A DNA stretch of 64,000 nt from Chiayiivirga flava. GTDB taxonomy: Bacteria > Pseudomonadota > Gammaproteobacteria > Xanthomonadales > Xanthomonadaceae. Below, piece by piece: positions 42,624 through 61,864 of this stretch. A model generated the notes under the pieces. That model worked only from the letters and a program-made list of their open reading frames with translations, was not told the origin of the DNA and ran no database searches. A program made the position numbers and the translations under genes. Within the stretch, counting starts at the first letter, position 1, and each line of letters opens with the position of its first letter. Location of the stretch: positions 186,001 to 250,000 of the forward strand of contig NZ_JACHHP010000004.1 in the NCBI RefSeq assembly GCF_014202825.1, in the 5' to 3' direction.

Positions 42624-42942
42624 CCTGCTTCGGCGGCGGATTTTTCGATTCGCCGCCGGCGCAGCGCGGCGTGCACGGCCAGACGCTGGTGCAGCGGTGT
42701 CATCCGCCGCGCCGCCGCGCCGCGTTCCGCGCAGTTCGGTCGCGCCCCGCCCGCGGGCTGCGTAACGCGCGCTCCGGATGTGTCGGACCGCAACCCCGGC
42801 ACCATCGGGCTGTAAACGATTACAGCTCCCGGCCACCGCCGCGCGCGCCTTGCGTGCCCACGGACGCGCCGTTACCGTCCCGCGCCTTCGCTGCCGCCGG
42901 TCGCTCTGCGCCGCCGCGGCACCCACGACACGAGACAGACCG
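42624..42942. other. 319-bp leader region of pckG
   Basis: A hairpin (CGGCGGCG...CGCCGCCG, 42631-42658) lies 8 bases after the TetR stop, with the T run in its loop, so it is not a standard intrinsic terminator. A LacI/Cra-like operator is at 42809-42826. No gene is seen. Confidence 0.55.
42809..42826. promoter_or_regulatory. LacI/Cra-like operator upstream of pckG
   Basis: GCTGTAAACGATTACAGC is a perfect inverted repeat (GCTGTAA-ACGA-TTACAGC) with the central CG typical of LacI-family operators. It fits the pattern TGWAANCGNTNWCA and resembles Cra sites. It ends 117 bases before pckG, a gluconeogenesis gene that Cra controls in enteric bacteria. The regulator here is unknown. Confidence 0.6.
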
Positions 42943-45826: not shown

Positions 45827-46726
45827 ATGAAAACCTCCTTCGCCCTTGCCCTGACCGGACTGTGTTTCGCAACGGCCGCGCTCGCCTCCACGCCGATCGA
45901 CGAAACGCGCAAGCTCGACGCCGGAGCCTCGGTCTGGCTCGACAACGTCAAGGGCCGCATCCAGGTCGATGTGTGGGACCGCGACGAGATCCACATCGGC
46001 GGCTTCCTCGGCGAGGGTGTCGAGAAGCTCTCGCTCGACGGCAGCGCGTCGGCGCTGCGGGTGAAAGTGGTCTATCCGAAGGGCGGCGGCTGGTTCGGCG
46101 GCGGCGACGGCGGCGAGCCGAGCGAGCTGCTCGTGAAGCTGCCGGCCAATGTCGAACTGTCGATCGATGCGGTCAGCGCCGAGGTCGGCGTGCGCGGCGT
46201 GGCCGGTCGCACGCTCAACATCGACAGCGTCAGCGGCGACATCGAGGTGGACACCGGCGCCGGCGACGTGGAGATCGATGTGGTCAGCGGCGATGTCACC
46301 GTGCAGGCGCAGTCGGACAAAGTGAGCATCGAGTCGGTCAGCGGCGACATCGAGTTGTCCGGCGCGATCGGGCGCACCGTGTCGGTGGAGTCGGTGTCGG
46401 GCGACATCAGCGTCGACACCGGCGAGCGCCTGCGTTCGATCGATGCGGGCGTGGTGTCGGGCGACATCGAGATCCGCGCCGCGCTCGCGTCCAATGCGCA
46501 GGTGAATGCGGAGAGCCTCAGCGGCGATCTTGAGCTGGTGCTCCCGACGGGCACCTCGGCGCGGCTCAAGGCGTCCAGCTTCACCGGCACGCTCAGTTCC
46601 GACGCGGGCCGCGTGATCAAGCCCGAACACGGGCCGGGGTCCAACCTCGATACCGTGCTGGGCGATGGCGACGGCGACATCGTGCTCGAAACCTTCTCCG
46701 GCGATCTGACCATCCGCCTGCGCTGA
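45827..46726 (+). CDS. Secreted DUF4097 beta-helix-like protein
   Basis: The 299-residue protein has a signal peptide (cleavage near ALA, residue 20), then an NVKGRIQVDVWDRDEI segment and at least six copies of a VSGDI(E/S)(V/L) unit spaced about 17-20 residues apart. The repeats probably stack as a beta-solenoid, the DUF4097/DUF2807 pattern found in envelope-stress proteins. It starts 39 bases after the anti-sigma-like gene, so it is probably the effector or sensor of that sigma system. Confidence 0.85.
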   Translation: MKTSFALALTGLCFATAALASTPIDETRKLDAGASVWLDNVKGRIQVDVWDRDEIHIGGFLGEGVEKLSLDGSASALRVKVVYPKGGGWFGGGDGGEPSELLVKLPANVELSIDAVSAEVGVRGVAGRTLNIDSVSGDIEVDTGAGDVEIDVVSGDVTVQAQSDKVSIESVSGDIELSGAIGRTVSVESVSGDISVDTGERLRSIDAGVVSGDIEIRAALASNAQVNAESLSGDLELVLPTGTSARLKASSFTGTLSSDAGRVIKPEHGPGSNLDTVLGDGDGDIVLETFSGDLTIRLR

Positions 46727-46803: not shown

Positions 46804-47790
46804 GTGGACCCAGCGACAACCGATCCGGGCGTGTGGACGCGCTACTGGCGCGGCGGCAGCCTGCATTCGTGCGGACATGCCTTTGCCGGCAACTACGCCG
46901 GCGCCGTCGCGGCGTTCTGGCAGGGCCGCTTCGCCGCGTGCGACGACGGTGCGCTGATCCTCGACGTCGGTACCGGCAACGGCGCGATTCCGCGCCTCGC
47001 GCTCGATCACGCACGCCGCCTGGGCCGCCAGTGGCGCATCCACGGCGCCGACATCGCGGCCATCGACCCGGCCCAGGTCGGCACCGACGCGGCGAACTAC
47101 GCGCCGCTGCAGTTCCACCCCGGCGTGTCGATGGCGCGGCTGCCGTTCGACGACGGCAGCGTGGATCTGATCACCGGCCAGTACGCGCTCGAATACACCG
47201 ACATCGACGCCAGCGTGCGCGAGTTCGCACGCGTGCTGCGGCGCGGCGGAGGCTGCGCATTCGTCCTGCACCGCACCGGCTCGGTGGTGCTGCGTGCGAC
47301 CGACCCGCAACTGGACGACTGCCGCTTCCTGTTCGTCGAGGCGCGGCTCTACCAGCGCGCGCGCGAACTGGCCACGTATCTTGCCCGCGCCAACACCGCC
47401 GCCCTGCGCGAACAGCTCGCAGGCGACGTCGGGGCGCAGCGCGCGCGCGCGAAGCTCAACGAGTCGGCCGACGCGGTGCTCGAGCGCATCGAGCGCAGTG
47501 CCGTGCCGGGCCTGCTGCAGACCGCGATGGCGCACATCGGCGAGGCCTTCGGCCAGGCACACGTGTGGGGCGAGGCGAAGACGCGCGAATTTCTCGCGTG
47601 GAGCGAGCAGGCGCTGCGCGACGAGGAGGCGCGACTGCGCCACCTGCGCGCGGCGGCACTCGACGACGCCGGTGTGCAGGCGCTGGGCGGACGGTTCGCG
47701 GCGCACGGTTTCGTCGATGTCGCGATCGGCGAACTGGTGCACGCGGCGGACGTGGCGATGGGCTGGACTCTCGCCGCGCGCCGCGCATGA
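46804..47790 (+). CDS. Class I SAM-dependent methyltransferase
   Basis: The GTG at 46804 was chosen because GAGG stands seven bases upstream; GTG 46783 is an alternative. The 328-residue protein has SAM motif I (ILDVGTGNGAIPRLAL, about 52-67), an acidic turn (GADIAAIDPAQ) and a motif like LPFDDGSVDLITGQYALEY. A long helical C-terminal extension follows. Its stop overlaps the start of the O-GlcNAc transferase gene (ATGA), so the two proteins are made together and may act on the same product. The substrate is unknown. Confidence 0.85.
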   Translation: MDPATTDPGVWTRYWRGGSLHSCGHAFAGNYAGAVAAFWQGRFAACDDGALILDVGTGNGAIPRLALDHARRLGRQWRIHGADIAAIDPAQVGTDAANYAPLQFHPGVSMARLPFDDGSVDLITGQYALEYTDIDASVREFARVLRRGGGCAFVLHRTGSVVLRATDPQLDDCRFLFVEARLYQRARELATYLARANTAALREQLAGDVGAQRARAKLNESADAVLERIERSAVPGLLQTAMAHIGEAFGQAHVWGEAKTREFLAWSEQALRDEEARLRHLRAAALDDAGVQALGGRFAAHGFVDVAIGELVHAADVAMGWTLAARRA

Positions 47791-49727
47791 CGGCCGCCGC
47801 GGCGTTCGAGGCCGCGCGCCGCGCCCACCTGCAGCAACGGCTGGACGAAGCGCAGACGCTCTACCGGCAGGTGCTGGAGACCACGCCCGACCATGCCGCG
47901 GCCTGGCACTACCTCGGCCTCGTGCTACACCAGCGCGGTGAGCCGGGCGCGGCGCTCGATGCCTATGCACGCGCCACCGCGCTCGCCCCCGGTCGCATCG
48001 ACACGCGCATCCTCGCCACCATGCTGCTGCGCGACCTTGGGCGCATCCGCGAGGCGCTCGACACCATCGCCGCCGTGCTCGCGGTGCAGCCGCGCAACGC
48101 GCTGGCGCTGAACCTGCGCGGTGCCCTGCTGCTGCTGTCGGGCGATGTCTCGCAGGCCGAGACGGCGCTGCGTGCGGCACTCGCCATCGACCCGCAGCTC
48201 GCCGAGGCCTGGCACCACCTGGGCATCGCACTGCATCGCCAACGGCGCTGGCGCGACGCGCTGGGCTGCTATCGCACCGCCGCCGCGCGCGGCGCCACGG
48301 GTTACCAACTGCAGCACAACATCGCGCTCGCGGCCGAAGCGGTGGGCGAGTTCGACGCGGCGGTGACCGCGCTGCACGCCGCCCTGCGCGCGGTGCCCGG
48401 CAACGCCTCGGGCTGGGCGCACCTGGCCAACATCCATGCGCTGCGCTGCGATTTTGTCGCGGCCGATGCCGCCTTCGCCCGGCTCGATGCCCTGCTGCAG
48501 CAGCCCGCCGACGGCGCCGATGCGCTGGTCGAGCCGTTCCTGCTGCTGTTCGCGCCGCTGTCGGCGCCGGCGCGTGCCGAGGCACTGCGCCGTTACGTGG
48601 CGCAGGTCGAACGCCAGACCGCGCACCTCGCGCGTCCGCAGCGCTCGCCGCACGCCGGCTCGCGCCTGCGAATCGGCTACCTGTCGCCGGATTTCGGCGA
48701 GCACGCGGTCGGGGGCCTCGTGCGCGACCTGTTCGCGGCGCACGACCGGAGCGGCTTCGACATCGCCGGCTATTCGCTGCGTCGCCACGAGGGCGACACC
48801 GCCGCACGCATCCGCGCGGGGTGCGACCTCTTTCGCGATGTCGAGGCGCAGTCGACCGAGGCGATCGCCGCACAGATCGCCGCCGACGGCATCGACATCC
48901 TCGTCGATCTCGGCGGCTACACCCTCGGCGCGCGCCCGGGCGTGCTCGCGCTGCGGCCGGCGCCGGTGCAGATCGGCTGGCTCGGCTTCCTGCACACGCA
49001 TGCGGCGCCGTTCATCGACGCGATCGTGCTCGACGAGTTCGTCGCGCCGCCCGCGCAGCATCACCTGTACGCCGAACGCGTGCTGACCCTGTCGGGAAGC
49101 CTGTTTCCCGGCAGCGGCTACCCCGCGCCGCGTGCCGCAACGCGCGCCCGTTTCGGCCTGCCGCACGACCGCTTCGTCTTCGCGAGCTTCAACAACAGCT
49201 ACAAGCTCGACGCGCCGCTGCTCGATGCCTGGGCGCGCATCGCGCGCGGCGCACCGGACGCGGTCTTCGCGCTGTACCTGCCGGACGCGGCGCGTGCGGG
49301 CGTTTCGCGCGCGTGGACCGAACGCGGACTCGCGGCCGAGCGCCTGCTGCTGCTGCCCAAGCTCGGCCTGGCCGAGCACATCGATCGCGCCGCCTGTTGC
49401 GACCTGTTCCTCGACGCGTTCCGCTACCAGGCCGGCGCCACGGCGATGGCCTCGGCCGCCGCCGGCCTGCCGACCCTGTGCGTGGCGGGGCAGGGCGCCG
49501 CGGCGCGGCTGAGCGTCAGCATCAACGGCGCGCTGGGGCTGCACGAACTGGTGGTCGATTCGGCCGATGCCTATGTCGACGCCGCCATCGCTCTGGCGCA
49601 AACGCCCGCTCGGCTCGCCGCGCTGCGGGAGCGTCTGGCCGCCGCGCGCACCGCCTCGGGGCTGTTCGATCCGCGCAGAGCCGCGACCGCGCTCGAGGCC
49701 GTCTACCGCCGGATCGCGGCCCGCTGA
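47787..49727 (+). CDS. TPR-containing O-GlcNAc transferase, SPINDLY/GT41 type
   Basis: The 646-residue protein has about six TPR units at 1-240, then a GT41 catalytic region. RIGYLSPDFGEHAVGGLVRD gives His306, matching the catalytic-site His of human OGT. Further on come DILVDLGGYTLGARPG, PVQIGWLGF, the uridine-diphosphate-binding lysine in FASFNNSYKLDAP, and AGATAMASAAAGLPTL near the C-terminus. Enzymes of this family transfer GlcNAc (or fucose) to Ser/Thr of proteins held by the TPR spiral in the cytoplasm. It is coupled to the methyltransferase upstream; the TonB receptor gene follows after 259 bases. Confidence 0.93.
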   Translation: MTAAAAFEAARRAHLQQRLDEAQTLYRQVLETTPDHAAAWHYLGLVLHQRGEPGAALDAYARATALAPGRIDTRILATMLLRDLGRIREALDTIAAVLAVQPRNALALNLRGALLLLSGDVSQAETALRAALAIDPQLAEAWHHLGIALHRQRRWRDALGCYRTAAARGATGYQLQHNIALAAEAVGEFDAAVTALHAALRAVPGNASGWAHLANIHALRCDFVAADAAFARLDALLQQPADGADALVEPFLLLFAPLSAPARAEALRRYVAQVERQTAHLARPQRSPHAGSRLRIGYLSPDFGEHAVGGLVRDLFAAHDRSGFDIAGYSLRRHEGDTAARIRAGCDLFRDVEAQSTEAIAAQIAADGIDILVDLGGYTLGARPGVLALRPAPVQIGWLGFLHTHAAPFIDAIVLDEFVAPPAQHHLYAERVLTLSGSLFPGSGYPAPRAATRARFGLPHDRFVFASFNNSYKLDAPLLDAWARIARGAPDAVFALYLPDAARAGVSRAWTERGLAAERLLLLPKLGLAEHIDRAACCDLFLDAFRYQAGATAMASAAAGLPTLCVAGQGAAARLSVSINGALGLHELVVDSADAYVDAAIALAQTPARLAALRERLAAARTASGLFDPRRAATALEAVYRRIAAR

Positions 49728-49838
49728 CGCCTGAACGAGCGCCGTCGGGCAATCAAATTCGCGATTTGCGTCACCGCAATCCATCGCTCCGGTCCGATCC
49801 AGTCGCGCCTTGTTCAGGTTGGACGCGATCCAGACCTA

Positions 49839-49868
49839 TTGCCGGTGTTAAATATTTGTTGCTACCAT
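49839..49868 (+). promoter_or_regulatory. Possible promoter of the TonB receptor gene
   Basis: TTGCCG and TACCAT are 18 bases apart, with an AT-rich spacer (gttaaatatttgtt) that stands out in this GC-rich region. The predicted leader is about 110 bases. Confidence 0.4.
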
Positions 49869-49986
49869 CCGGCACTGCTGGATCAGGGGTGGCCAGGAAA
49901 GTCGGCCTGTCTGACGGCAGATCCATGGATGTGGATCCAACTTTTGTCCCGAATTGTGCAAGACACTCTGACGTTGGAGAGAGCGA

Positions 49987-52641
49987 ATGAATTTCAACCG
50001 TAACCTGCTTAGCGAAGCGGTACGATACGGACTCGCGGCGGGTGCCGTCGGTCTGCTCGGCTTCGCCGCCGCCCCTGCGTATGCGCAGGACGAAGACGAT
50101 GCCGCCACCCTCGACCGCATCGAAGTCACCGGCTCGCGCATCAAGCGTGTCGACATCGAAGGCCCGAACCCGGTCACCGTGATCGATCGCGCCGATCTTG
50201 AAATCTCCGGCGACGTGTCGGTGGCGGACGTGCTGCGTTCGTCGACCTTCAACACCTTGGGTTCGTTCGTGCAGTCCTCGGGCAACACCGCCCAGTCGCA
50301 GGCGACCATCTCGCTGCGCGGCATCGGCTCGCAGTACACCCTGCTCCTGCTCGACGGCCGTCGCATCGCGTCGTCGCCGGTGCTCGGCGCGGCTGCGCAG
50401 AACCTCAACGCGATTCCGTTCGCGGCGGTGGAGCGCATCGAAATCCTGCGTGACGGCGCCTCGGCGCTGTACGGCTCCGACGCGGTCGGCGGCGTGGTCA
50501 ACGTGATCCTGCGCAAGGACTACGAAGGCCTGACCATCGCCGGCCAGATCGAGCGTCCGACCCGTGGCGAGCCCGATGCGAACTCGGCCTCGATCACCGG
50601 CGGCATCTCGTCGGACCGCGGCAACCTGACCTTCGTCATCGACCATCAGGAACGCGACATCTTCTTCAACCGCGACCGCGACACCGGCATCCCGGGCCTC
50701 AACCCGGCGGTGGGCCTGTCGTCGTTCGGTTTCCCGGGCTCGGCGTACGTGTACTCGTCGACCGACGGTTCGTTCTCCGGCGACTTCGTCGGCGCGTTCC
50801 CGGACCCGCAGTGCCCGACGGCGCTCGGTTCGGACCCGCTGTTCCCGAACTCGGTCGTGGTCGAGAACGCCTACGGCGCGCTGTGCCGCTTCAACTACGC
50901 CGCGGTGTCGGCGAACGAAGCGTCGCTGCGTCGTGAATCGGCGATGGTCAACGGCAACTTCCAGCTCACCGACAACGTCAGCGCGTTCACCCGCGTGATG
51001 GCGAACTCGGGCGAGTCGTTCGGCCGTTACGCCGCGACCCCGGTCACCGGTCCGTTCCCGACCATGCGCGGCGACAACCCGAACAACCCGTTCGGCGGCG
51101 ACGCCACGCTGCTGTACCGCTTCGTGGCGGGCGGCAACCGCGACAGCACCGTGCGCGACCACATGCTCGACGTGCTGTTCGGCCTCGAAGGCCAGATGGA
51201 TCTGTTCGGCGGCGCCGAGTGGGAAATCGCGGCGCGCCACAACCGCTACGAGATCGACTCGATCGGCACCGGCTACCTGCTGCGTCCGCCGCTCCAGTCG
51301 GCGATCGACGCGGGCACGTTCAACCCGTTCGGCAACCCGAACGACCCGGCGTTCCAGGCCGCGGTCGGCGCACTCAGCCACACGATCCTGCAGAACTCGG
51401 TCACGCGTGACGTCGGCATCGACGGCCTGCTGTCGTTCGACCTGTTCGAGATGGCGAACGGCCCGGCCGGCATGGCGGTGGGCTTCGACTACCGCGACAC
51501 GTACTTCGCCGACCTCGTCGACGCGCAGTCCGCCGCGCTGAACGTGTCGGGCACCGCGGGCGGCAACGCCCAGGGCGAACGTGCCCAGTACGCGGTGTTC
51601 GCCGAAATGGCGCTGCCGCTGCTGTCGAACCTGAACCTGTCGATCGCGGCGCGTTACGACCACTACAACGACTTCGGCAACAGCACCAACCCGAAGGTCT
51701 CGCTCGACTTCCGTCCGATCGAATCGCTGCTGCTGCGTGCCTCGTACGGCACCGGCTTCCGCGCGCCGGACCTGGCGAGCCTGTACCAGTCGGGCGTGCA
51801 GTCGTTCAACGGTGCACGCGACGTTCGCGCCTGCAACGGCGACGTCCCGGGCTTCTCGGCTCCGTTCAATCCGTGTAATGCGCGTCAGTACGAGAACCGT
51901 ACCGGCAGCAACCCGAACCTCGAAGCGGAAGATTCGACGAACTGGGGCGCGGGCGTGGTGTGGAGCGCGCTGGACAACCTGACCTTCAGCCTGGACTACT
52001 ACAACATCCAGCTCGAGAATCAGGCCGCCGTGCTGTCGCTGCAGCGCATCCTCGACCTCGAAGCCGAGGGCGACCCGCTGGTCGACGGTCTCGTGACCCG
52101 CAGCCCGGCCACCGGTGCGATCCTGCTCGTCAACCGCGCGCCGCTGAACCTGGGCGGCTTCAAGACCGCCGGCTACGACTTCGAAGTCGACTACCGTCTG
52201 GAAACCGACCTCGGCGTGTTCTCGCCGAAGTTCGTCGTGACCTACCTCGACAAGTACGAGACCGAGTCCTTCCCGGGCACGGGCTTCAGCGACGCGATCA
52301 CCGGCTCGGGTTTCACCCCGGACACGCGCGCGCAGCTGCAGCTGGACTGGGCGCTGGGTGACTTCGGCGTGGGCATCGTCGGCGACTACATCGGCGACAG
52401 CTACCAGGACGTGACGATCGCGAACGAAGACGTGCGTGTGAACATCCCGTCGTGGACCACGTGGGATCTGCAGGCCACCTGGTCGGCGCCGTGGAACGGC
52501 AAGGTCTCGGTCGGTGTCCGCAACGTGGCCGACAAGGCCCCGCCGCTCGACAACATCGTGATCTCCTCGCCGTTCTACCTGAACAGCCAGTACGACTTCT
52601 ACGGCCGCGTCCCGTACGTGCGCTACGAGCAGAAGTTCTGA
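49987..52641 (+). CDS. TonB-dependent outer-membrane receptor
   Basis: The 884-residue protein has a signal peptide (cleavage near AYAQ, residue 34), a TonB-box-like ATLDRIEVTGSRI, a plug domain at about 50-160 (ATISLRGIGSQYTLLLLDGRR, core RGIGSQYTLLLLDG, then VERIEILRDGASALYGSDAVGGVVN) and a 22-strand-type barrel ending in Phe (RVPYVRYEQKF). Such receptors import iron chelates, vitamins, sugars or peptides using TonB energy. The ligand is not evident. It lies between the O-GlcNAc transferase and the sulfotransferases; its C-terminus closely matches that of the small barrel gene at 62030-63061. GGAGAG is the ribosome site. Confidence 0.95.
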   Translation: MNFNRNLLSEAVRYGLAAGAVGLLGFAAAPAYAQDEDDAATLDRIEVTGSRIKRVDIEGPNPVTVIDRADLEISGDVSVADVLRSSTFNTLGSFVQSSGNTAQSQATISLRGIGSQYTLLLLDGRRIASSPVLGAAAQNLNAIPFAAVERIEILRDGASALYGSDAVGGVVNVILRKDYEGLTIAGQIERPTRGEPDANSASITGGISSDRGNLTFVIDHQERDIFFNRDRDTGIPGLNPAVGLSSFGFPGSAYVYSSTDGSFSGDFVGAFPDPQCPTALGSDPLFPNSVVVENAYGALCRFNYAAVSANEASLRRESAMVNGNFQLTDNVSAFTRVMANSGESFGRYAATPVTGPFPTMRGDNPNNPFGGDATLLYRFVAGGNRDSTVRDHMLDVLFGLEGQMDLFGGAEWEIAARHNRYEIDSIGTGYLLRPPLQSAIDAGTFNPFGNPNDPAFQAAVGALSHTILQNSVTRDVGIDGLLSFDLFEMANGPAGMAVGFDYRDTYFADLVDAQSAALNVSGTAGGNAQGERAQYAVFAEMALPLLSNLNLSIAARYDHYNDFGNSTNPKVSLDFRPIESLLLRASYGTGFRAPDLASLYQSGVQSFNGARDVRACNGDVPGFSAPFNPCNARQYENRTGSNPNLEAEDSTNWGAGVVWSALDNLTFSLDYYNIQLENQAAVLSLQRILDLEAEGDPLVDGLVTRSPATGAILLVNRAPLNLGGFKTAGYDFEVDYRLETDLGVFSPKFVVTYLDKYETESFPGTGFSDAITGSGFTPDTRAQLQLDWALGDFGVGIVGDYIGDSYQDVTIANEDVRVNIPSWTTWDLQATWSAPWNGKVSVGVRNVADKAPPLDNIVISSPFYLNSQYDFYGRVPYVRYEQKF

Positions 52642-52689
52642 TCTAGTTGTCACACAAGCGGGTCATCGAACCCGCCTGCTGCACCCCTC

Positions 52690-52720
52690 AGCGGCTCGCT
52701 TCGGCGAGCCGCTTTTTTTT
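52690..52720 (+). terminator. Strong Rho-independent terminator
   Basis: A 10-bp perfect stem AGCGGCTCGC-TTCG-GCGAGCCGCT is followed by eight T. It ends the TonB receptor transcript 49 bases after the stop codon. Confidence 0.95.
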
Positions 52721-52818
52721 GCGTGGGGTTTGCGCGCGGTGGCCGGCGATGTGTCGGCTTGCGACGGTTGTCTGCGGCCGTGCGTCCGGTTTGCGAGCAA
52801 AGGCGCGGAGGGCGGGCA

Positions 52819-53538
52819 ATGAGGACCAGGCACTGGTTCGCGGGTGCGCTGCTGGTGTTGCCGATGGCAGCTGCGGCGCCGCAGGTGCATGCACAGGACG
52901 GGCCGCCGGTGTTGCCCGAGATCGTCGGCAGCAGCGTGTTCCTGCATTACCACCCGGACCTTCGTCACCGCCGCGACGGCATGCTCGCGATGGAGCGTGG
53001 CGCAAACGACATGGCGCTGCGGCACTTCGTCCGCGCGGCGGAGTTCTCGGACAAGCCGTCGCAGGCGTTTCTCGCCGACATGCATTGGCATGGCACGGGC
53101 GTTCCGCGCGATCGTGCGCTGGCCTATGCGTGGATGGATCTGGCGGCCGAGCGCGGCTATCCGCTCTTCGTCGCGTATCGGGAGCGGTACTGGCACGCGC
53201 TCGATGCCGACGAGCGGGCGCGCGTGCAGGACGTCGGCGCACCGCTGTACGCGCGCTACGGCGACGCCGTCGCCAGGCCCCGGATGGAGCACATGTTGCG
53301 CAAGGGGCGGATGGACTTCACCGGCAGCCGCGTCGGCGTTGTTCCGTTCGGGCTGGAGGTGCTGGTGCCGTCGCCCACGGGCGGCTGGATGCGCATTCCC
53401 GAGGACTGGGCGTACCAGGAGCGGTTCTGGCACGCGGACGAATACTTCGAATGGCAGGACGAGATCCACGACAGGATGCCGCAGGGCGTGGTCGAGATCG
53501 GCCCGATCGCGCCCGGCGACGACGGCGGGCCGCGCTGA
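52819..53538 (+). CDS. Secreted Sel1-repeat-like protein
   Basis: The ATG at 52819 follows GGAGGGCGG and opens with a signal peptide (cleavage near VHAQ, residue 26); total 239 residues. The central part shows Sel1-type helical repeats (QAFLADMHWHGTGVPRDRALAYAWMDLAAERGY, cores DMHWHGTGVPRD and AYAWMDLAAERG). The C-terminal third has many Trp, Phe and acidic residues. Sel1 proteins act as scaffolds in the periplasm. It runs convergently to the sulfotransferase genes, with only three bases between them. Confidence 0.75.
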   Translation: MRTRHWFAGALLVLPMAAAAPQVHAQDGPPVLPEIVGSSVFLHYHPDLRHRRDGMLAMERGANDMALRHFVRAAEFSDKPSQAFLADMHWHGTGVPRDRALAYAWMDLAAERGYPLFVAYRERYWHALDADERARVQDVGAPLYARYGDAVARPRMEHMLRKGRMDFTGSRVGVVPFGLEVLVPSPTGGWMRIPEDWAYQERFWHADEYFEWQDEIHDRMPQGVVEIGPIAPGDDGGPR

Positions 53539-53541
53539 CCG

Positions 53542-54903
53542 TCACCCGGCGGCGATGCGCGTCAGCAATCCGTCGGCGGCGGGAACATAGCGCCGCCAGC
53601 GCTCGACGCTGTTGCGGTTGATCGGCGCGCGCAACTGCGCCTCGCTGTGGGTGGCCACAGGCTGCGTGGCGCGCCAGAACTGCGTCATGTCGTCGCGCCA
53701 GCGGAGGCCGAGCGCATGCAGCGGCGCGGCGAGCGCGGCCTCCGCGTCGTCGACGACGGCTTCGTAGTCGATGTGCACCACGCGCGCCGGTTCCCGTGCG
53801 TGCCAGTGCTCGACGTGCGCCCGCAGCGCGTGCGCGTAGCGTGCGAGGTCGTCGATGTGGTTGCCGTAGGCGCAGCCGAATTCGAAGTCGTGCTGCCAGA
53901 TGGAAATCGCGGTGTCGGCGAGGCTGCGGCGGCAGTGCAGCACGAGAGCGTCCGGGAACAGCGCAAGGATCAGGCCGATGTGCGCGGCATTGGCGGGCAG
54001 CTTGTCGACCACGATGCCGGCGCCGTGCGCCATATCGCCGACCGCGGCGCGATACCAGCGTGCGCAGAAGTGCAGGCGCTCGGCATCGGCCTGCGCGGGC
54101 GAGCGGCACGGGCCGTTGGCGAGTGTGGGAATCAGGTTCTGTTCGCCGGCCTGCGCCACGTCCGGATGCGCGCCGAGCAGGGCACTGAGCAGCGTGGTCC
54201 CGCTGCGTGGCAGTCCGACGATGAACACCGGGCGCGGCGATGCGCCGTCGCCTGCGGTTGCGGGCGACCAGCGACGGTCGATGGCGAGGTCGGCCTCGAA
54301 TGCGTCGCCGTTCCACGTGCCGATGCGCTGCCGTTTCAGCGCGTGGGCGGTGCTGGCCCATGCGAATGCCTCGTTCGGGGCGTCGGCGTCGAGCAGCGTG
54401 GCGAGGGCGAACGCGGTCTTCTCGCGTTCGTAGGCCGATGTCGTGCGCCGATGCCATGCCTGCAGGTGCGTCGCGACATCCGGGCCCGCCGCCGCGCGCG
54501 CCTCGACCGCCTTCTGCCACGCGTCGACACTGTCCGGAAACCGCCTGATTGCCGCAGCAAACCGCGCCTGCGCCTGCGCGCGTTCGCCGACCGCCTGCGC
54601 GACCTGCGCCGACAGCAGCAGACGTCCGATATCGAGGTTTTCGGCATCCGGCCACGCCGCCATGCCGTGCCACGCGCGTTGCGGCCGGTTGCCGAGCAGC
54701 AGGTGCTGCAGCCACGCAAGCTCGATCGACGCATCGTGCGCAAACGCGGCATGCAGGCGATCGAGCGCACGCAGCCGCGCGTACGGGTCGGCCTGCACGG
54801 ACGGGTGTGCGAGCACGCCGCGCAGGCCCGCCGGTGGCGTGTCGCGCAGCGCGGCTTCGAGCGCCGCGTCCGGATGCGGCGTCCACGGCGGGTGCGCGGC
54901 CAC
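53542..54903 (-). CDS. Sulfotransferase-family protein with helical N-terminus
   Basis: A GTG at 54903, two bases after the stop of the preceding gene, gives 453 residues. The N-terminal half is helical and TPR-like (about 45-195). The PAPS 5'-phosphosulfate loop GLPRSGTTLL is at 230-239, and the 3'-phosphate-binding element CRRSLADTAISIW follows about 100 residues later, as expected for sulfotransferases. It transfers sulfate from PAPS to a hydroxyl, possibly a protein tyrosine. It is translationally linked to the longer TPR-sulfotransferase. Confidence 0.88.
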   Translation of the reverse strand: MAAHPPWTPHPDAALEAALRDTPPAGLRGVLAHPSVQADPYARLRALDRLHAAFAHDASIELAWLQHLLLGNRPQRAWHGMAAWPDAENLDIGRLLLSAQVAQAVGERAQAQARFAAAIRRFPDSVDAWQKAVEARAAAGPDVATHLQAWHRRTTSAYEREKTAFALATLLDADAPNEAFAWASTAHALKRQRIGTWNGDAFEADLAIDRRWSPATAGDGASPRPVFIVGLPRSGTTLLSALLGAHPDVAQAGEQNLIPTLANGPCRSPAQADAERLHFCARWYRAAVGDMAHGAGIVVDKLPANAAHIGLILALFPDALVLHCRRSLADTAISIWQHDFEFGCAYGNHIDDLARYAHALRAHVEHWHAREPARVVHIDYEAVVDDAEAALAAPLHALGLRWRDDMTQFWRATQPVATHSEAQLRAPINRNSVERWRRYVPAADGLLTRIAAG

Positions 54904-54905
54904 GC

Positions 54906-56912
54906 TCAGAGACTGTAGCCGAAGCGTTCGATCAGCGGCGCGAGTGCCGGCAGGTGCGGATCGAGCACGTCGCGGTAGCGGCGCCAGCGGTCCATCGCGC
55001 TGCGGTACACCGGCTGCGCGACCTGGTGGTAGCTGCTGGTGGTGACGCGTTCGCCGCCGTCGCGCACGCGCTGGTCGTGGCGCAGCAGGGCGTCGTACCA
55101 CGGCAGGTCGACGGCATCGCACAACGCACGCAGCCGCGGTTCCGGCGCATCGACGAGATCTTCGTAGCGCAGCACCGTGTGCGCGATCGGCAGACGTGCC
55201 TGCGCGGCGTCCCAGCAACGCATCGAGCGCAGGTAGAAGTCGACCGTGTCGGCGAGCGTGTGGAAATGCCAGTTGGCGGCGTTGGCGGTGAACGGCTGCA
55301 TCCAGTTGCTGAGCACCACGTCGGACGGATGCCGCAGCACGAACACGTGGCGCGCGTGCGGCAGCAGGCGCCAGATCAGCGCGGCGTGGTGCGAGCGGAT
55401 CGGCATCACGTCGACCACGCGACGCTCGGCGGCCGACGGCGCAGACGCAAGCACACGCTCGCGATACAGCAGACGCAGCCGTTCGGCGGCCTCCGGCGAC
55501 AGCGTGGCGATGGCCTCGGGATAGCTGCGCGTCTGTTCGAGCGCGGCGGCGCAGGCTTCGATCGTCGATTTCTCTTCCAGCGTGGCCACGCCCGGGTGGC
55601 CCGCGAGCATCGTGCGCAGCAGCGTGGTGCCCGAGCGCGAGAAGCCGTAGACGAAGATCGGCGTGTCCGGCACGGGCGGCAGTTCGCGCCACGCGGCGGG
55701 GTCGGTCTGGGCGAGCCAGGACGCGATGCGGTCCAGCCGGTCGGCGAGGCCACGGGCGTCGGGTTCGAGCGAACGTGCGCCGTGCCGGGCGAGCGTGTTC
55801 GCGCGTTCGAAGGCCTGGGTGGCGGCGGCGGCATCGTCGGCCTGGTCGTGGATCTGGCCGGCCTCGTAGTGGTAGCGCAGCGCGAAGCGGGTGGGCAGGT
55901 GCGCGGGGTCGATCGCGCGCAGTCGCTGCAGCGCGGCGTCGTTGCGCTTGCGGCGGCGTTCGAGGATGGCGGCCTCCAGCAGCAGGCGCGGGTCGTGCGG
56001 CGCGATGGACAGGCCGCGCTGCAGCGCCGCGGCCATGTCGTCGATGCGGTTTTCGATTTCGTGCAGGTCGGCCAGTTCCGCCCACACTTCGGGATCGCCC
56101 GGCGCCAGCTGCGCGGCGCGTTCGAGAGCGTGGCGCGCGCCGGCGCCGTCGAGCTGCTGGCTCAGCAGCACGCCCAGGTACAGCCATGCCAGCGCGTGGT
56201 CCGGCTGCTGCGCCAGCACGTGCTCGTAGCGGGTGCGGGCGGCATCGAGCCGGTTGTCGTGGTGTTCGCACAGACCGGCGTGGATCAGTGCGTCGGCGTC
56301 GTCGGGCGCGCGCTTGAGCCAGGTGTCGAAGGCCAGTTGCGCACGTGCGACGTGGTCGAGCGCAAGTTCGGTCTTGCCGAGGTTGAGCCAGGCATTGCGG
56401 TAGGCGGGCCGCAGCTGGCTGGCGTGGCGGAATGCGTCGATGGCCTCGTGCATGCGGCCGCGCGCGCGTTCGGCCACGCCGAGGTTGTGCCAGCCGGGCG
56501 AAAACGCCGGGTCGAGCTGCACCGCGCGACGGAAGGCGGCGAGCGCGGCGTCCGGATGCCCGAGATTGTGCAGCGCCCGCGCGAGGTGGTTCTGCGCGAC
56601 GGCGAGACCGGGGTCGCGCCGGATCGCCTCCTGCGCGCACGCGGCGGCCTGGGCGAAGTCCTCCGCGGCGTGCGCGTGCAGCGCGGCGGCGATCCAGTCC
56701 TCGGTCCGGTGCCGCTCGCTCATCGGCTTGAGCACGCTCAGGCGCAACGCGTCGTCCATGCGGCCGTCGGCCAGCATCAGCTCGCGCAGGGTCTGCAGTT
56801 GCTCGATCGTCAGGTCGACGGGCAGGGCGGCGAGCACGCCGTCCCAGTCGGCCGCGGCCGCGGCCGTGAGCACGGGTGCGGCGGGGGCGCCTGCGGAACG
56901 TGAAATATCCAT
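54906..56912 (-). CDS. TPR-sulfotransferase fusion protein
   Basis: The start MDISRSAGAP at 56912 gives 668 residues. About eight TPR units span 65-400 (for example NHLARALHNLGHPDAALAAF). The sulfotransferase domain from about 415 has the PAPS loop GFSRSGTTLL at 423-432, the 3'-phosphate motif FVLRHPSDVVLSNW and a C-terminal region with YRSAMDRWRRY. TPR arrays usually hold protein partners, so a protein substrate is likely. It is the first gene of a two-gene minus-strand operon; a palindromic repeat (copy 3) lies in its upstream region. Confidence 0.92.
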   Translation of the reverse strand: MDISRSAGAPAAPVLTAAAAADWDGVLAALPVDLTIEQLQTLRELMLADGRMDDALRLSVLKPMSERHRTEDWIAAALHAHAAEDFAQAAACAQEAIRRDPGLAVAQNHLARALHNLGHPDAALAAFRRAVQLDPAFSPGWHNLGVAERARGRMHEAIDAFRHASQLRPAYRNAWLNLGKTELALDHVARAQLAFDTWLKRAPDDADALIHAGLCEHHDNRLDAARTRYEHVLAQQPDHALAWLYLGVLLSQQLDGAGARHALERAAQLAPGDPEVWAELADLHEIENRIDDMAAALQRGLSIAPHDPRLLLEAAILERRRKRNDAALQRLRAIDPAHLPTRFALRYHYEAGQIHDQADDAAAATQAFERANTLARHGARSLEPDARGLADRLDRIASWLAQTDPAAWRELPPVPDTPIFVYGFSRSGTTLLRTMLAGHPGVATLEEKSTIEACAAALEQTRSYPEAIATLSPEAAERLRLLYRERVLASAPSAAERRVVDVMPIRSHHAALIWRLLPHARHVFVLRHPSDVVLSNWMQPFTANAANWHFHTLADTVDFYLRSMRCWDAAQARLPIAHTVLRYEDLVDAPEPRLRALCDAVDLPWYDALLRHDQRVRDGGERVTTSSYHQVAQPVYRSAMDRWRRYRDVLDPHLPALAPLIERFGYSL

Positions 56913-56965
56913 GCATGGGATTCTAGCGGCGTGGCTCCCTGTGCGCGTCCGGTTCCGGCGATTCG

Positions 56966-57134
56966 CTTCCTTCTCTCCGCGGGAGAAGGTGCCGAAGGCG
57001 GATGAGGGAGCCACGTGCAGGTTACCTCGACGTCAGGCCGCAGCGAATTTCGAATGCGGAGAAGATCTCGGCAGCCTGCCAGGTGGCTCCCTCATCCGCG
57101 CTGCCGCGCACCTTCTCCCGCGGGGAGAAGGAAG
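56966..57134. repeat. Palindromic repeat family, copy 3
   Basis: Arms starting TTCCTTCTCTCCGCGGG (56967) and ending in its near complement (57134) flank a loop of about 60 bases containing CCTCGACGTC. It lies between the divergent TPR-sulfotransferase and TIGR03032-like genes, in the space where both promoters must be. Confidence 0.85.
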
Positions 57135-57200
57135 GGCCGACGACCGGAGCGTCTTTTTGCCTGCATTGCGCCGCGCGTCGCGACGGTGCGGCGCGGCAGG

Positions 57201-57206
57201 TAGAAT
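57201..57206 (+). promoter_or_regulatory. Putative -10 box (TAGAAT)
   Basis: TAGAAT followed by GCGCC lies 53 bases before the TIGR03032-like start. No clear -35 is seen. Confidence 0.45.
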
Positions 57207-57259
57207 GCGCCTCTTTGCCTCGCGCCCGGCCGCGCCCGGCGCGTACGGAGACCGTCCCG

Positions 57260-58318
57260 ATGTCCAGCCAGCCCCCCGTCCAGAAACTGGAACTCAACGC
57301 CACGCGCAATTTCGCGCCGTGGCTCGCCGAGCAGAACGCGAGCGTGCTCGTGTCGACGTACCAGTCCGGCATGCTCTTCATGATCGGCGTGAAGCCCGAC
57401 GGCACGCTGTCGTACTTCAACCGCATGGTGGCGCGCGCGATGGGCATCGCGGCGAATCCGCAGACCATCTGGGTCGGCACCATGTACCAGGTCTGGCGTT
57501 TCGAGAACACGCTCGATCCGGGCAAGGACCACCAGGGCTTCGACGGCTACTACATGCCGCGCGTGGCCTACAGCACCGGCGACATCGATTGCCACGACAT
57601 CGGCATGCGCAACGACGGCACGCCGATCTTCGTCAACACGATGTACAGCTGCCTTGCCACCGTCGACGAGCGCTACAGCTTCCGCAGCGTGTGGGTGCCG
57701 CCGTTCATCACCAAGCTCGCGCCGGAGGACCGCTGCCATCTCAACGGTCTTGCGATGGTCGACGGCGAGGCGAAGTACGTCACGTGCATCAGCCGCAGCG
57801 ACGCGCCGGGCGGCTGGCGCGATTTCCGCAACGACGGCGGCCTGGTGCTGGAAGTGCCGAGCGGCGAGGTGGTGTGTTCGGGCCTGTCGATGCCGCATTC
57901 GCCGCGCTGGTATCGCGACCGGTTGTGGGTGCACAACTCGGGCACCGGGCATTTCGGCTACGTCGATTTCGCAAGCGGCAAGTTCGAGCCGATCGCGTTC
58001 TGTCCCGGCTACCTGCGCGGTCTGAGCTTCGTCAACAACTACGCGGTGGTGGGACTGTCGGCCGGGCGCGACAAGAGCCAGTCGGGCCTCAAGCTCGAGG
58101 ACAACCTGCGCGAGAAGGGCGCCATCGGGCGCTGCGCGGTGCAGGTGATCGATCTGGAACGCGGCGACGTGCACCACGAGATCCGCATCCTCGGCGACGT
58201 GAAGGAGCTGTACGACACCGCCGTGCTGCCGGGCATCCGTGTGCCGGGCACGGTGGGGTTCATGTCCGAGGAAATCTGGAACCGGATCAACTTCGTCGAT
58301 CCGCTGTCGGCGAAATGA
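57260..58318 (+). CDS. TIGR03032/DUF4915-like protein of unknown function
   Basis: The 352-residue protein starts FAPWLAEQNASVLVSTYQSG after a short tail and continues with segments such as RMVARAMGIA, TIWVGTMYQVWRFEN, DCHDIGMRNDGTPIFVNT, RCHLNGLAMVDGEAKYVT and GLSMPHSPRWYRDRLWV. These match, from memory, a conserved family (TIGR03032/DUF4915) seen beside TPR and oxygenase genes. The strand pattern suggests a beta-propeller; no signal peptide is present, so it is cytoplasmic. It is coupled (ATGA) to the TPR-oxygenase gene. The biochemical function is unknown. Confidence 0.85.
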   Translation: MSSQPPVQKLELNATRNFAPWLAEQNASVLVSTYQSGMLFMIGVKPDGTLSYFNRMVARAMGIAANPQTIWVGTMYQVWRFENTLDPGKDHQGFDGYYMPRVAYSTGDIDCHDIGMRNDGTPIFVNTMYSCLATVDERYSFRSVWVPPFITKLAPEDRCHLNGLAMVDGEAKYVTCISRSDAPGGWRDFRNDGGLVLEVPSGEVVCSGLSMPHSPRWYRDRLWVHNSGTGHFGYVDFASGKFEPIAFCPGYLRGLSFVNNYAVVGLSAGRDKSQSGLKLEDNLREKGAIGRCAVQVIDLERGDVHHEIRILGDVKELYDTAVLPGIRVPGTVGFMSEEIWNRINFVDPLSAK

Positions 58319-59727
58319 GCGCGACGACACCCCATCCGCGACTGGCCGAAGCCTTCGAACGGCATCGTGCCGGCGATCTCGCCGCCGCCGAGCAGGCCTA
58401 CCGCGCGGTGCTGGCCGAGCGCGGGGAGGACGCCGACGCCCTCAACGGGCTCGCCGGCCTGAGCCTGGTGCAGCGCCGTCCCAATCAGGCGTTGGCGTTG
58501 CTGCGCCGTGCGCTGGCGCAGCGTCCGGAGTCCGCGGTGATCTGGTCCAATCTCGCGCGCGCCGCGCTCGGCAGCGGCCGCAGCGAGGACGCCGCACGCG
58601 CTGCGCAGCGCGCCTGCGAACTCGGCGGCGACACCGTCGACGATCTGCTGCTGCTCGGCAACGCGTTGCGCGACCTGGATCGCACCGACGAATCCGAAGC
58701 CGCGTTCGAGCGCGCCGCGCAAAAGGCGCCCGGCCAGCTCGCGCCGGCCTACAACCTCGCCATCTCCCACCTCACCGCGGGGCAGCACGAGCGCGCGCTG
58801 CGCGAACTGAAGGCATTGACGGCACGCTTCCCGGCCCAGCCTGCCGTGCGCCACAGTCTTGCGAATGCGCTCGCGGCGGTCGGCCGGCATGCCGAGGCGC
58901 TGGTCGAGTACCGCGCCACCACCGAGCAATCGCCCGGCTTTGTCGCGGCGTGGACCAACTATGCGCTGACCTGCCTTGAGGTCGGCGAGCTGGACGAAGC
59001 CGCCGCGGCGCTCGACCACGCGCTGGACCTGCGGCCGGGCGAGCCGGTGGCCGTCGCCGCGGCCGGCGTGCTGGCGCAGCGCGAGGGCGATGCGGCGCGT
59101 ATCGCGCAATTGTTCGATGTCGACCGCGTGATCGTCGCGGGCGAGCTGCCGCTGCCGGCGCAGGTGCCCGACCGGCAGGCGTGGCACGACGCGATCGAAG
59201 CGGAAATCCTCGCCTTGCCGCATCTGCGCCGCGACCTGGCCAGCAAGACCACGCGCGACGGCCGCCAGAGCGGGAACCTCGCCGCGATCGGTCACGGCGC
59301 ACTCGGCGCATTCGTCGCCGCGCTGCGCGAGACGCTCGCTGCGCGCATCGACGCGCACGCATCGCGCCAGCACGGTGTCGATCCGGTGCTGGTGGCTCCG
59401 CCGCCCGCGCGCTGGCATCTGAACCTGTGGGCCACCGTGCTCGATCCCGCCGGTCACCAGGATCCGCATCTGCATCCGTCCGGCTGGCTCAGCGGCGTGT
59501 ATTACCTGCGTGCCGCCGCGTCGCCGGACGATCGCGCCGGCTGGATCGAATTCGGCGCGCCGCCGACGGTACTGCAGGGCGACACGCCGCCGACCGTGCA
59601 CGCACTGCAGCCACGCGAGGGCGAACTCGTCACGTTCCCGTCGTACCTGTACCACCGTACCGTTCCGCACCGCGGCGACGGCTTGCGCATCAGCCTCGCC
59701 TTCGACGTGGTGCCGCTGCCGGCCTGA
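58315..59727 (+). CDS. TPR protein fused to a 2OG-Fe(II) oxygenase domain
   Basis: The 470-residue protein has six or seven TPR units at about 5-265 and a C-terminal oxygenase domain of the putative 2OG-Fe(II) type (PF13759-like). Its iron motif is HLHPSGWLSGVYYL with His385 and His387, the distal ligand His447 is in LYHRTVPH, and an Arg follows in GLRISLAFDV for 2-oxoglutarate. Such enzymes hydroxylate proteins or small molecules using O2 and 2-oxoglutarate. The start codon overlaps the upstream gene's stop, so the product is made together with the TIGR03032-like protein. Confidence 0.88.
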   Translation: MSATTPHPRLAEAFERHRAGDLAAAEQAYRAVLAERGEDADALNGLAGLSLVQRRPNQALALLRRALAQRPESAVIWSNLARAALGSGRSEDAARAAQRACELGGDTVDDLLLLGNALRDLDRTDESEAAFERAAQKAPGQLAPAYNLAISHLTAGQHERALRELKALTARFPAQPAVRHSLANALAAVGRHAEALVEYRATTEQSPGFVAAWTNYALTCLEVGELDEAAAALDHALDLRPGEPVAVAAAGVLAQREGDAARIAQLFDVDRVIVAGELPLPAQVPDRQAWHDAIEAEILALPHLRRDLASKTTRDGRQSGNLAAIGHGALGAFVAALRETLAARIDAHASRQHGVDPVLVAPPPARWHLNLWATVLDPAGHQDPHLHPSGWLSGVYYLRAAASPDDRAGWIEFGAPPTVLQGDTPPTVHALQPREGELVTFPSYLYHRTVPHRGDGLRISLAFDVVPLPA

Positions 59728-59757
59728 GCCGGCGCCCGGGACGTGGCGCGGCGGCCG

Positions 59758-60426
59758 TCACGCGCCGAGCACCTGCGGCGCGCCGCGAATCCACGCGTTG
59801 AATGCGATGACGATGCGCGGCCGCGTGCCCCAGTACGGAAACACCTCGTGATACACGTACGAGGGAAACAGCAGCAACCTGCCCGTTTCGTGCCGCACCT
59901 TCCAGCCGCCGTGGTGGAACTGGCCGCGCAGATGCTCGTTGCCCGAGTCCACGTACATGTCCCCGCCCAGGCGTGTGTCGAGGAACCGCACCGTGCCGCT
60001 GTCGGGCCGGTCGGCCGGCGAATCGCCGGGGTCCACGCAGAAAATGCCCGACCACGACGCCATCGGATGGTTGTGCACGCCCTGGTGCCCGCCAGTGCGC
60101 GTGACGTGGAACCACGAGTGGTAATCGAACGTCAGCTGCGCGTAGACCTCGGGCGGGAAGCCGGACAGTTGCTGCACCAGCGCCGCGAGGCTGTGATGGA
60201 TGAATCCGAACGCGTGCTGCACCGGCGCATCGGGCCAGGTGTGCAGATCGAAGCTGCTTTCGAACAGCCCGTGCTGCGTGTCGCGGCGGATGGCGTTGCG
60301 GTAACGCGCGCCTTCGGCTTCGCGCTGCAGGAACAGGTCGCGCAGTTGCGCGCAGGCCGGTTCCGCGTCGGGCAAGCGGGCTTCGCCGAACGGCACGGAA
60401 AACAGCGGATGGACGTTGACGGTCAT
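59758..60426 (-). CDS. Stand-alone putative 2OG-Fe(II) oxygenase
   Basis: The ATG at 60426 gives 222 residues beginning MTVNVHPLFSVPFG, which fits TIGR02466-type oxygenases. The iron ligands are likely His118 or His120 (HQGVHNHPMASWSGIF) and His193 (VYHEVFPYWG), with Arg204 for 2-oxoglutarate. It lacks TPRs. It faces the TPR-oxygenase gene tail to tail with 30 bases between them, and is divergent from the TPR-AspH gene. It shares the W-SG-(I/V) iron-site pattern with the upstream oxygenase and is probably a relative with its own substrate. Confidence 0.87.
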   Translation of the reverse strand: MTVNVHPLFSVPFGEARLPDAEPACAQLRDLFLQREAEGARYRNAIRRDTQHGLFESSFDLHTWPDAPVQHAFGFIHHSLAALVQQLSGFPPEVYAQLTFDYHSWFHVTRTGGHQGVHNHPMASWSGIFCVDPGDSPADRPDSGTVRFLDTRLGGDMYVDSGNEHLRGQFHHGGWKVRHETGRLLLFPSYVYHEVFPYWGTRPRIVIAFNAWIRGAPQVLGA

Positions 60427-60495
60427 GCGGACGGGCGGTGGCAAAGGCTGCGCCGACGATGCGGGCAATGCCCGGTGCCGTCAACCGGCGCGCGA

Positions 60496-60501
60496 TAGAA
60501 T
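60496..60501 (+). promoter_or_regulatory. Putative -10 box (TAGAAT)
   Basis: TAGAAT followed by CGCG lies 28 bases before the TPR-AspH start codon. Confidence 0.45.
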
Positions 60502-60529
60502 CGCGTTTTCCAGCCGATCCGCGCGTGCC

Positions 60530-61864
60530 ATGCCGACCCCGCCCTCCCTCGTCTCGCTCGACATCGATGCACAGCTGCGCCAGGCCAACCTGTTGCTGCA
60601 GCGTGGCGACAGCGCGGGCGCCACGCGACTGCTGCGCGGGGTGCTCGACCACGACGCCGCGAACGTACCGGCGCTCAATCTGCTGGCCCGGCTTGCGCTC
60701 GGCAGCGGCCGCGCCTGGGATGCGGTGCAGATCCTGCGCCGCGGCGTGCAGGCCAATCCACGCCACCCGGTGCTGCAGCACAACCTCGCGCTGGCGCTGG
60801 CGCAGAACAACAAGATGGATCACGCGATCGAGGCCTTGCGCACCGCGGTGGCGCTGAAACCGGACTACCTCTCGGCGTGGCTGTACCTGGGCGGCTATCT
60901 GCAGAAGCAGCGCCAGGAGGCGGCCGCCTGCGGCGCATTCATGCGCGCGCTGTCCGTCGGCGCGGCGCTGAGTCGGCACGGCGCGCCGGAGTTGCAGCAG
61001 CCGGAGATCCGCCAGATGGTGCAGCACGCGCAGGCGGCCGTGCAGCAGATCCGCAGCGACGTCTTCGAGCGCGCACTCGCGCCGGTCCGCGCCCGTGTCG
61101 GGCGCGAGGCGTTGGCGCGCATCCAGGGTGCGGTCGACATCTACCTGCAGCGCCGTCCCGCCAACTATCCGCCGAAACAGCGCCCGGCCGGCATGTTCAT
61201 CCCGGATCTGCCGCCACGGCCGTTCTTCGAGCGCGAGGACCTGCCGTGGGTCGAAACGCTCGAAGCGGGCATTCCGGTGATCCGCGAAGAACTGCTGGCA
61301 CTGATGCAGACCGACAACCCGTTCACCCCGTACGTGCAGCTGCCGCCGGACTCGCCGCAGGCGCGCGACTGGGCCATCGTCAACCATTCGGACACGTGGG
61401 CCTCGCGCCACGTGTATCGCCACGGCGAGCTGATCGAAAGCACCGCCGCGCTCTGTCCGCGGACGGTCGCGCTGCTCGACACGGTGCCGGTGATGCGCAT
61501 CCCGGGGCATGCGCCGGAGGTGCTGTTTTCCGTGCTGAAGGCGCGCTCGCGCATCCCGGCGCACCACGGCACCGTCAACGGCCGGCTCATCATCCACGTG
61601 CCGCTGATCGTGCCGTTCAACTGCGGCGCGCTGAAGGCCGCCGACGAACAGCGCACGTGGGAAGAGGGCAAATGCATCATCTTCGACGATTCGTTCGCGC
61701 ACGAGGCCTGGAACGACAGCGATCACACCCGCGTGGTGTTGCTCGTCGACACCTGGAACCCCTATCTGAGCGAGGCCGAGCGCGAGGCGTTCTCGGCCGC
61801 GCTGGTGGCGATCGACGATTTCACGATGCAGGCGCTCGGCGAACACGCGAACGCGTTCGTCTGA
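60530..61864 (+). CDS. TPR protein with aspartyl/asparaginyl beta-hydroxylase domain
   Basis: The 444-residue protein has three TPR-like units at about 15-145, a helical linker, and an AspH/LpxO-type domain at about 235-430. Its Fe ligands are His346 (RIPAHHGTVNGRL) and His391 (FDDSFAHEAWN), and Arg401 (HTRVVLLVD) binds 2-oxoglutarate. The domain hydroxylates Asp/Asn of proteins in animals and lipid A in some bacteria; TPR fusion favours a protein substrate. No membrane segment is seen. It is the third 2OG-dependent enzyme in a row here and belongs functionally with the sulfotransferase/O-GlcNAc cluster, by inference. Confidence 0.9.
   Translation: MPTPPSLVSLDIDAQLRQANLLLQRGDSAGATRLLRGVLDHDAANVPALNLLARLALGSGRAWDAVQILRRGVQANPRHPVLQHNLALALAQNNKMDHAIEALRTAVALKPDYLSAWLYLGGYLQKQRQEAAACGAFMRALSVGAALSRHGAPELQQPEIRQMVQHAQAAVQQIRSDVFERALAPVRARVGREALARIQGAVDIYLQRRPANYPPKQRPAGMFIPDLPPRPFFEREDLPWVETLEAGIPVIREELLALMQTDNPFTPYVQLPPDSPQARDWAIVNHSDTWASRHVYRHGELIESTAALCPRTVALLDTVPVMRIPGHAPEVLFSVLKARSRIPAHHGTVNGRLIIHVPLIVPFNCGALKAADEQRTWEEGKCIIFDDSFAHEAWNDSDHTRVVLLVDTWNPYLSEAEREAFSAALVAIDDFTMQALGEHANAFV

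Follow-up and report, generated by a model that had tools for sequence, protein, structure and literature searches.

Why would a bacterium encode an outer-membrane nutrient receptor together with relatives of the enzymes that attach sulfate, hydroxyl groups and sugars to proteins in animals? This question is raised by a gene cluster in a 64,000-nucleotide stretch of the Chiayiivirga flava genome, here called the window. The pairing suggests, without proving it, that a surface receptor is decorated before it is exported. With belief and doubt evenly balanced, we read the locus as one form of a protein-modification locus that is linked to a TonB receptor and conserved in Lysobacteraceae and other Gammaproteobacteria, and whose enzymes would modify the receptor prior to export.

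Ten genes lie within positions 46804 to 61864. Families were assigned by Pfam and NCBIfam profile matches over the window genes; each family named in an earlier note on this DNA is confirmed by curated profiles, and its eight enzyme and TIGR03032 genes lie where it had placed them. A class I SAM methyltransferase (MT; 46804..47790, plus strand; Methyltransf_25, 42.5 bits) is followed by a TPR-containing GT41 glycosyltransferase of a distinct OGT-like subfamily (47787..49727, plus; PF13844, 207 bits, many TPR matches). Next come a TonB-dependent receptor (49987..52641, plus; PF00593/PF07715) with the C-terminus GRVPYVRYEQKF and a Sel1-repeat protein (52819..53538, plus; PF08238), both with a signal-peptide-like N-terminus. 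Two sulfotransferases occupy the minus strand with a gap of 2 bases: the TPST-like ST1 (53542..54903; PF13469, 113 bits) and the TPR-bearing ST2 (54906..56912; PF13469, 110.7 bits, many TPR matches). The TIGR03032/DUF4915 protein (57260..58318, plus) scores 436 bits with TIGR03032, above the curated cut-off of 251.5, and 425 bits with DUF4915. The remaining enzymes are a TPR-2OG protein, which combines TPR repeats with a PF13759 2OG-Fe(II) oxygenase (58315..59727, plus; 75 bits), a free PF13759 2OG-Fe(II) oxygenase (free 2OG; 59758..60426, minus; 60.5 bits, against a curated cut-off of 27 for both), and TPR-AspH, a TPR-containing aspartyl/asparaginyl beta-hydroxylase-like enzyme (60530..61864, plus; PF05118, 136 bits). 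The ATGA overlaps that had been noticed are present, at 47787-47790 between MT and GT41 and at 58315-58318 between DUF4915 and TPR-2OG. The claim of shared TPR fusions holds for GT41, ST2, TPR-2OG and AspH, but not for the smaller sulfotransferase (53542-54903), which has no TPR match. In the 4.07 Mb host genome, PF13469 and PF13759 have two matches each, all four of them within this stretch.

The closest solved relatives of these enzymes (OGT/XcOGT, TPST, AspH and the prolyl hydroxylase fold) bear out the view that such classes can act on proteins. For ST1 they are protein-tyrosine sulfotransferases, with a weak similarity (E about 1e-5). Its 5' PAPS loop, PRSGTT, is present, GLPRSGTTLL being aligned with TPST2; by this loop and the PF13469 fold ST1 is tyrosylprotein sulfotransferase-like, with tyrosine as the putative acceptor. 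The free 2OG has a confident AlphaFold model (pLDDT 91), whose two top fold matches are uncharacterised proteins; next come the prolyl-4-hydroxylase of Pseudomonas putida, the structure of which was solved in complex with EF-Tu, and PHD2; fungal and antibiotic-pathway oxygenases are also among the matches. TPR-AspH has human AspH as its best solved relative (8e-23), and the two metal-binding His residues (H...H) and the motif WEEGK..FDDSF.HE are aligned between them. Both human AspH and the tyrosylprotein sulfotransferases are eukaryotic enzymes of the secretory pathway.

The glycosyltransferase is less easily labelled. Its best solved relatives are human OGT and XcOGT. Like XcOGT (XCC0866, PDB 2JLB/2VSN) and the Thermobaculum OGT (PMC4683255), it combines TPR repeats with a GT41 domain and retains the catalytic-region His (FGxH) and Lys (YK), FGEHAVG and FNNSYKLD being aligned. 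It is unlike them in its operon linkage to a methyltransferase and a receptor, and in having a conserved RYxxGAT, without the Asp, in place of the UDP-contact motif HTT..D. The GAT form is common to its close relatives. Because of this replacement the protein is not filed as an O-GlcNAc transferase, and neither GlcNAc nor another sugar donor can be assigned to it; the O-GlcNAc label of the earlier note is therefore weak. The NGT model gives only 26 bits (cut-off 1000). Among 17 scored GT41 ORFs, which include two loci duplicating others, 15 are directly preceded by MT on the same strand. A lone close paralogue with the GAT motif, without receptor or methyltransferase, exists in the host genome (G000 C2:56-58 kb; L129:8888-10810), and in Alkalisalibacterium limincola (L164 / L075) the receptor locus is intact except for an apparent frameshift in the GT41 gene.

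Do these families belong together? It had been proposed that a lack of co-occurrence in other genomes would speak against a common system. PF13759 matches were taken from 119 genomes of the host's family, most of them were retrieved and the surrounding DNA was annotated, a design that avoids the selection of favourable cases. At least one partner is found at 33 of the 39 unselected free-2OG loci, so that the proposal of a common system is not refuted. ST1 is a partner at 25 and the methyltransferase at 9; the six partnerless loci include one on a 5.5 kb contig. The TonB receptor, which had been regarded as a mere interruption, turns out to be the most constant partner, lying within 6 kb of the free 2OG in 30/39. 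PF13469 itself is rare in the family (about 80 matches in 30 genomes). Hence, the linkage of enzymes and receptor across genomes is strong, far beyond chance. A TPR-2OG gene alone is no marker, since 10 of 16 such loci are without partners, while five have enzyme partners and a receptor and one has only a Sel1 gene. Apart from the window, L114 is the only enzyme locus with relatives of the Sel1 protein, and this gene is not part of the conserved set.

A compact form of the locus was found by scanning named genomes with the free-2OG alignment. In Luteimonas terricola (L159), L160 and L174, the genes for XOO1806, receptor, ST1, 2OG, MT, GT41 and TPR-2OG follow one another on one strand. Luteimonas arsenica and Pseudoxanthomonas taiwanensis have the Luteimonas terricola order. 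The same order without ST1, again on one strand, is seen at L169, L170, L184, L205 and L176, and is present in other Pseudoxanthomonas and Luteimonas, one Stenotrophomonas (without TPR-2OG) and one Xanthomonas isolate. A MAG labelled Rubrivivax (L221) has the compact order as well, which may reflect transfer or misbinning. Genes overlap by 4-8 bases at most 2OG/MT and MT/GT41 junctions; in L159, ST1/2OG and 2OG/MT each share 4 bases and MT/GT41 about 8. Because it lies within the same-strand operon of these relatives, the TonB receptor is a core part of the locus, and the window is a rearranged, enlarged version of the compact gene set. Gaps from receptor through TPR-2OG are about 60 bases or less in L159 and L160, and by these gaps neither operon holds a short precursor-peptide gene of the RaxX type. 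Since pckA directly follows TPR-2OG in L159, starting 55 bases past this last operon gene, there is no room for a separate one. Of the products of the compact operons, only the receptor and XOO1806 are exported. In two gammaproteobacterial MAGs (L156, L177), a single receptor is surrounded by eight or nine ORFs for ST1-type sulfotransferases.

Modification of the receptor before export appears to be the simplest reading of this arrangement, because the enzymes lack signals, the receptor and XOO1806 are the sole exported products and no gap could hold a precursor peptide. In the window, none of the enzymes has an N-terminal signal-like sequence, while the receptor, the XOO1806-like protein and the Sel1 protein do, and the usual co-substrates of these enzyme classes are cytoplasmic. 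The receptor is most likely the substrate of the co-encoded enzymes. Its precursor would be unfolded in the cytoplasm after synthesis, where the operon-encoded sulfotransferase, the PF13759 and AspH-type hydroxylases, GT41 and the methyltransferase could act on it, perhaps in sequence as the earlier note proposed, each with its putative modification. The TPR arrays of several of the enzymes could hold the extended chain, and the modified receptor would then pass through Sec and be inserted by BAM. A receptor loop is a possible modified part; a conservation analysis of the receptor for a target site gave no clear candidate residue. Receptor clade and enzyme set correspond: receptors of the window-like PYxRYEQ clade are accompanied by MT and GT41, those of another clade by 2OG and ST1 only.

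Several findings count against modification of the receptor. These are the lack of a clear target site in the conservation analysis, paralogues without enzymes, the scores of the AspH-like protein with lipid hydroxylase models, a methyltransferase resembling small-molecule enzymes, the weakness of the TPST similarity and the altered UDP motif of GT41. Some of them would fit enzymes whose product is a ligand of the receptor, be it a small molecule, a lipid or a glycan, made or tailored in the style of siderophores or Nod factors and then recognised or imported. TonB receptors mostly serve to import small ligands, and their genes often adjoin those for the enzymes of the ligand's pathway; such a ligand could account equally well for the linkage. 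The AspH-like protein matches OlsC with 101 bits, far under the cut-off of 450, and LpxO with 64 bits; ST1 also has a weak match to NoeE, and the best solved relatives of the methyltransferase are, with weak scores, small-molecule methyltransferases. However, the compact operons have no synthetase, scaffold-building enzyme or exporter, TPR arrays are carried by GT41, ST2, TPR-2OG and AspH, and the solved enzymes closest to OGT, ST1 and AspH have protein substrates. We consider a role in ligand synthesis unlikely.

It is likewise unlikely, and slightly more so, that the targets of the enzymes are other exported proteins and not the receptor, which would then be tied to the enzymes only via shared regulation or function. 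What speaks for such targets comes largely from domain fusions. Single proteins of about 1000 residues combine AspH, sulfotransferase and DUF4915 domains (L040:9322-12333, L047:7279-10455), proteins of L043 and L048 score like them, and a PF13759 gene overlaps the fusion gene in L040 and L043. At L268-L272, AspH and sulfotransferase are joined in shorter proteins of about 620-690 residues. That AspH, sulfotransferase and DUF4915 belong together is supported independently by these fusions, which also count in favour of modification of the receptor. Large exported beta-helix/PMP-repeat proteins adjoin the fusion enzymes (L040:2877-8318, L043:11858-17593, L048:5166-7322); the one of L048 has many acid-flanked tyrosines (such as IYHDDDGY) and is alone among these neighbours in matching an IPTL-CTERM tail. 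The window itself offers two exported neighbours, XOO1806 and the Sel1 protein. On the other hand, the compact Luteimonas operons export only the receptor and XOO1806, and Sel1 is not conserved. Adjacency to DUF4915 was rejected as a conserved link, enzyme genes being almost absent, fusions aside, from the neighbourhoods of 40 DUF4915 loci. DUF4915 is also found fused to TPR repeats in a second copy at L033 (G000 C2:913 kb), and to TPR repeats and a GT9-like domain at L066.

The position of the cluster has to be taken into account as well. It sits between a conserved XOO1806 gene and DUF4097/pckA. In the window, the variable cargo is bordered on the left by a DUF4097-type exported protein (45827..46726, plus; assigned by homology, its L188 homologue at the same border being PF13349) and followed by the small XOO1806-like exported protein, the eleventh gene of the locus (62030..63061, minus). 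The latter has a full-length NF052276 match of 223 bits, under the curated cut-off of 280, and is called XOO1806-like because its position and C-terminal motif are the same. A gene named pckA (phosphoenolpyruvate carboxykinase) from its sequence (42778..44706, plus) is a landmark near the site. XOO1806 is found in 117/119 family genomes, whatever the cargo. Even where the genome lacks PF13759, 17 of 20 XOO1806 flanks contain a receptor or some of the enzymes; L260 and L264 belong to the three with none. Across L248-L267, the content of the XOO1806-pckA interval varies: at L260 and L264 it includes none of these families, at the other extreme several receptors and enzymes, and at L257 and L259 two ST1 genes accompany an Oar-like receptor. 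A hunt for extra conserved genes near the enzymes gave mainly the recurring flank genes, namely pckA (54 loci), TetR, a sigma factor, DUF4097 and Hsp33, together with further 2OG oxygenases. Part of the linkage can therefore be ascribed to the common site, since cluster and flanks recur at the same position; fixed order and overlapping genes argue that the cargo functions together as well. That the site is simply an insertion hotspot gathering unrelated cargo is very improbable and largely refuted by operon order and fusions: the cargo does vary from genome to genome beside a near-constant XOO1806, but the same few families recur, and they stand together as similar gene sets at L270, L197 and L209, where no XOO1806 is detected.

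XOO1806 is probably an outer-membrane beta structure. Its model is of low confidence (pLDDT 69.5) with only weak porin-like fold matches, and it is not claimed from structure to be a fragment of a TonB barrel. In the alignment, the XOO1806-like protein and the receptor have in common the C-terminal motif WRTPW..VGARN..PYVRYRQDL, an element that ends PYxRYxQ. Under the reading that the receptor is modified before export, XOO1806 and three receptor paralogues of the host genome would be possible further substrates. One may go further and propose, tentatively and with more doubt than belief, that sulfation, hydroxylation, glycosylation and methylation all take place on the receptor before export, that XOO1806 is a companion with the same C-terminal recognition element, and that lineages exchange enzyme sets and so alter the receptor surface, which might for instance counter phages or bacteriocins.

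In its logic, modification of the receptor before export would be analogous to two known systems. In the HMW1C/NGT system, the HMW1 adhesin, an exported surface protein, is the target of an OGT-like GT41-type enzyme encoded with it (PMC3012730); there, a single chemistry acts on a two-partner-secreted adhesin, whereas the window locus has several chemistries and a TonB receptor. In Xanthomonas oryzae, of the same bacterial family, the tyrosine sulfotransferase RaxST is encoded with its exported target RaxX (PMC6637879), a likeness drawn from the description of the system rather than from the RaxST sequence. RaxX is a precursor peptide of 60 residues with its own secretion genes, and neither such a peptide nor such an exporter is seen at this locus. 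Glycosylation by HMW1C/NGT takes place in the cytoplasm. The earlier note knew of no described system with this set, and none was found in a literature search pairing TonB receptors with sulfotransferases, nor was any paper mentioning DUF4915, TIGR03032 or XOO1806, although most subscription papers lay outside both searches.

Should the receptor prove to be the target, this would place outer-membrane receptors among the proteins bearing the kinds of groups which animal cells put on secreted and regulatory proteins. TPR-sulfotransferases, PF13759 oxygenases, TPR-AspH, the GT41 subfamily and DUF4915 would gain a testable bacterial substrate. Furthermore, there would be a relevance to the entry of phages and bacteriocins, because TonB receptors are common entry points. 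The three close paralogues of the window receptor (G000 C3:76 kb, C1:471 kb and 475 kb; L234, L235) are 92, 84 and 76% identical to it and have the same C-terminus without adjoining enzymes; they might be served in trans by the enzymes of the window. An extra regulator-like gene lies between the two paralogues of the C1 pair.
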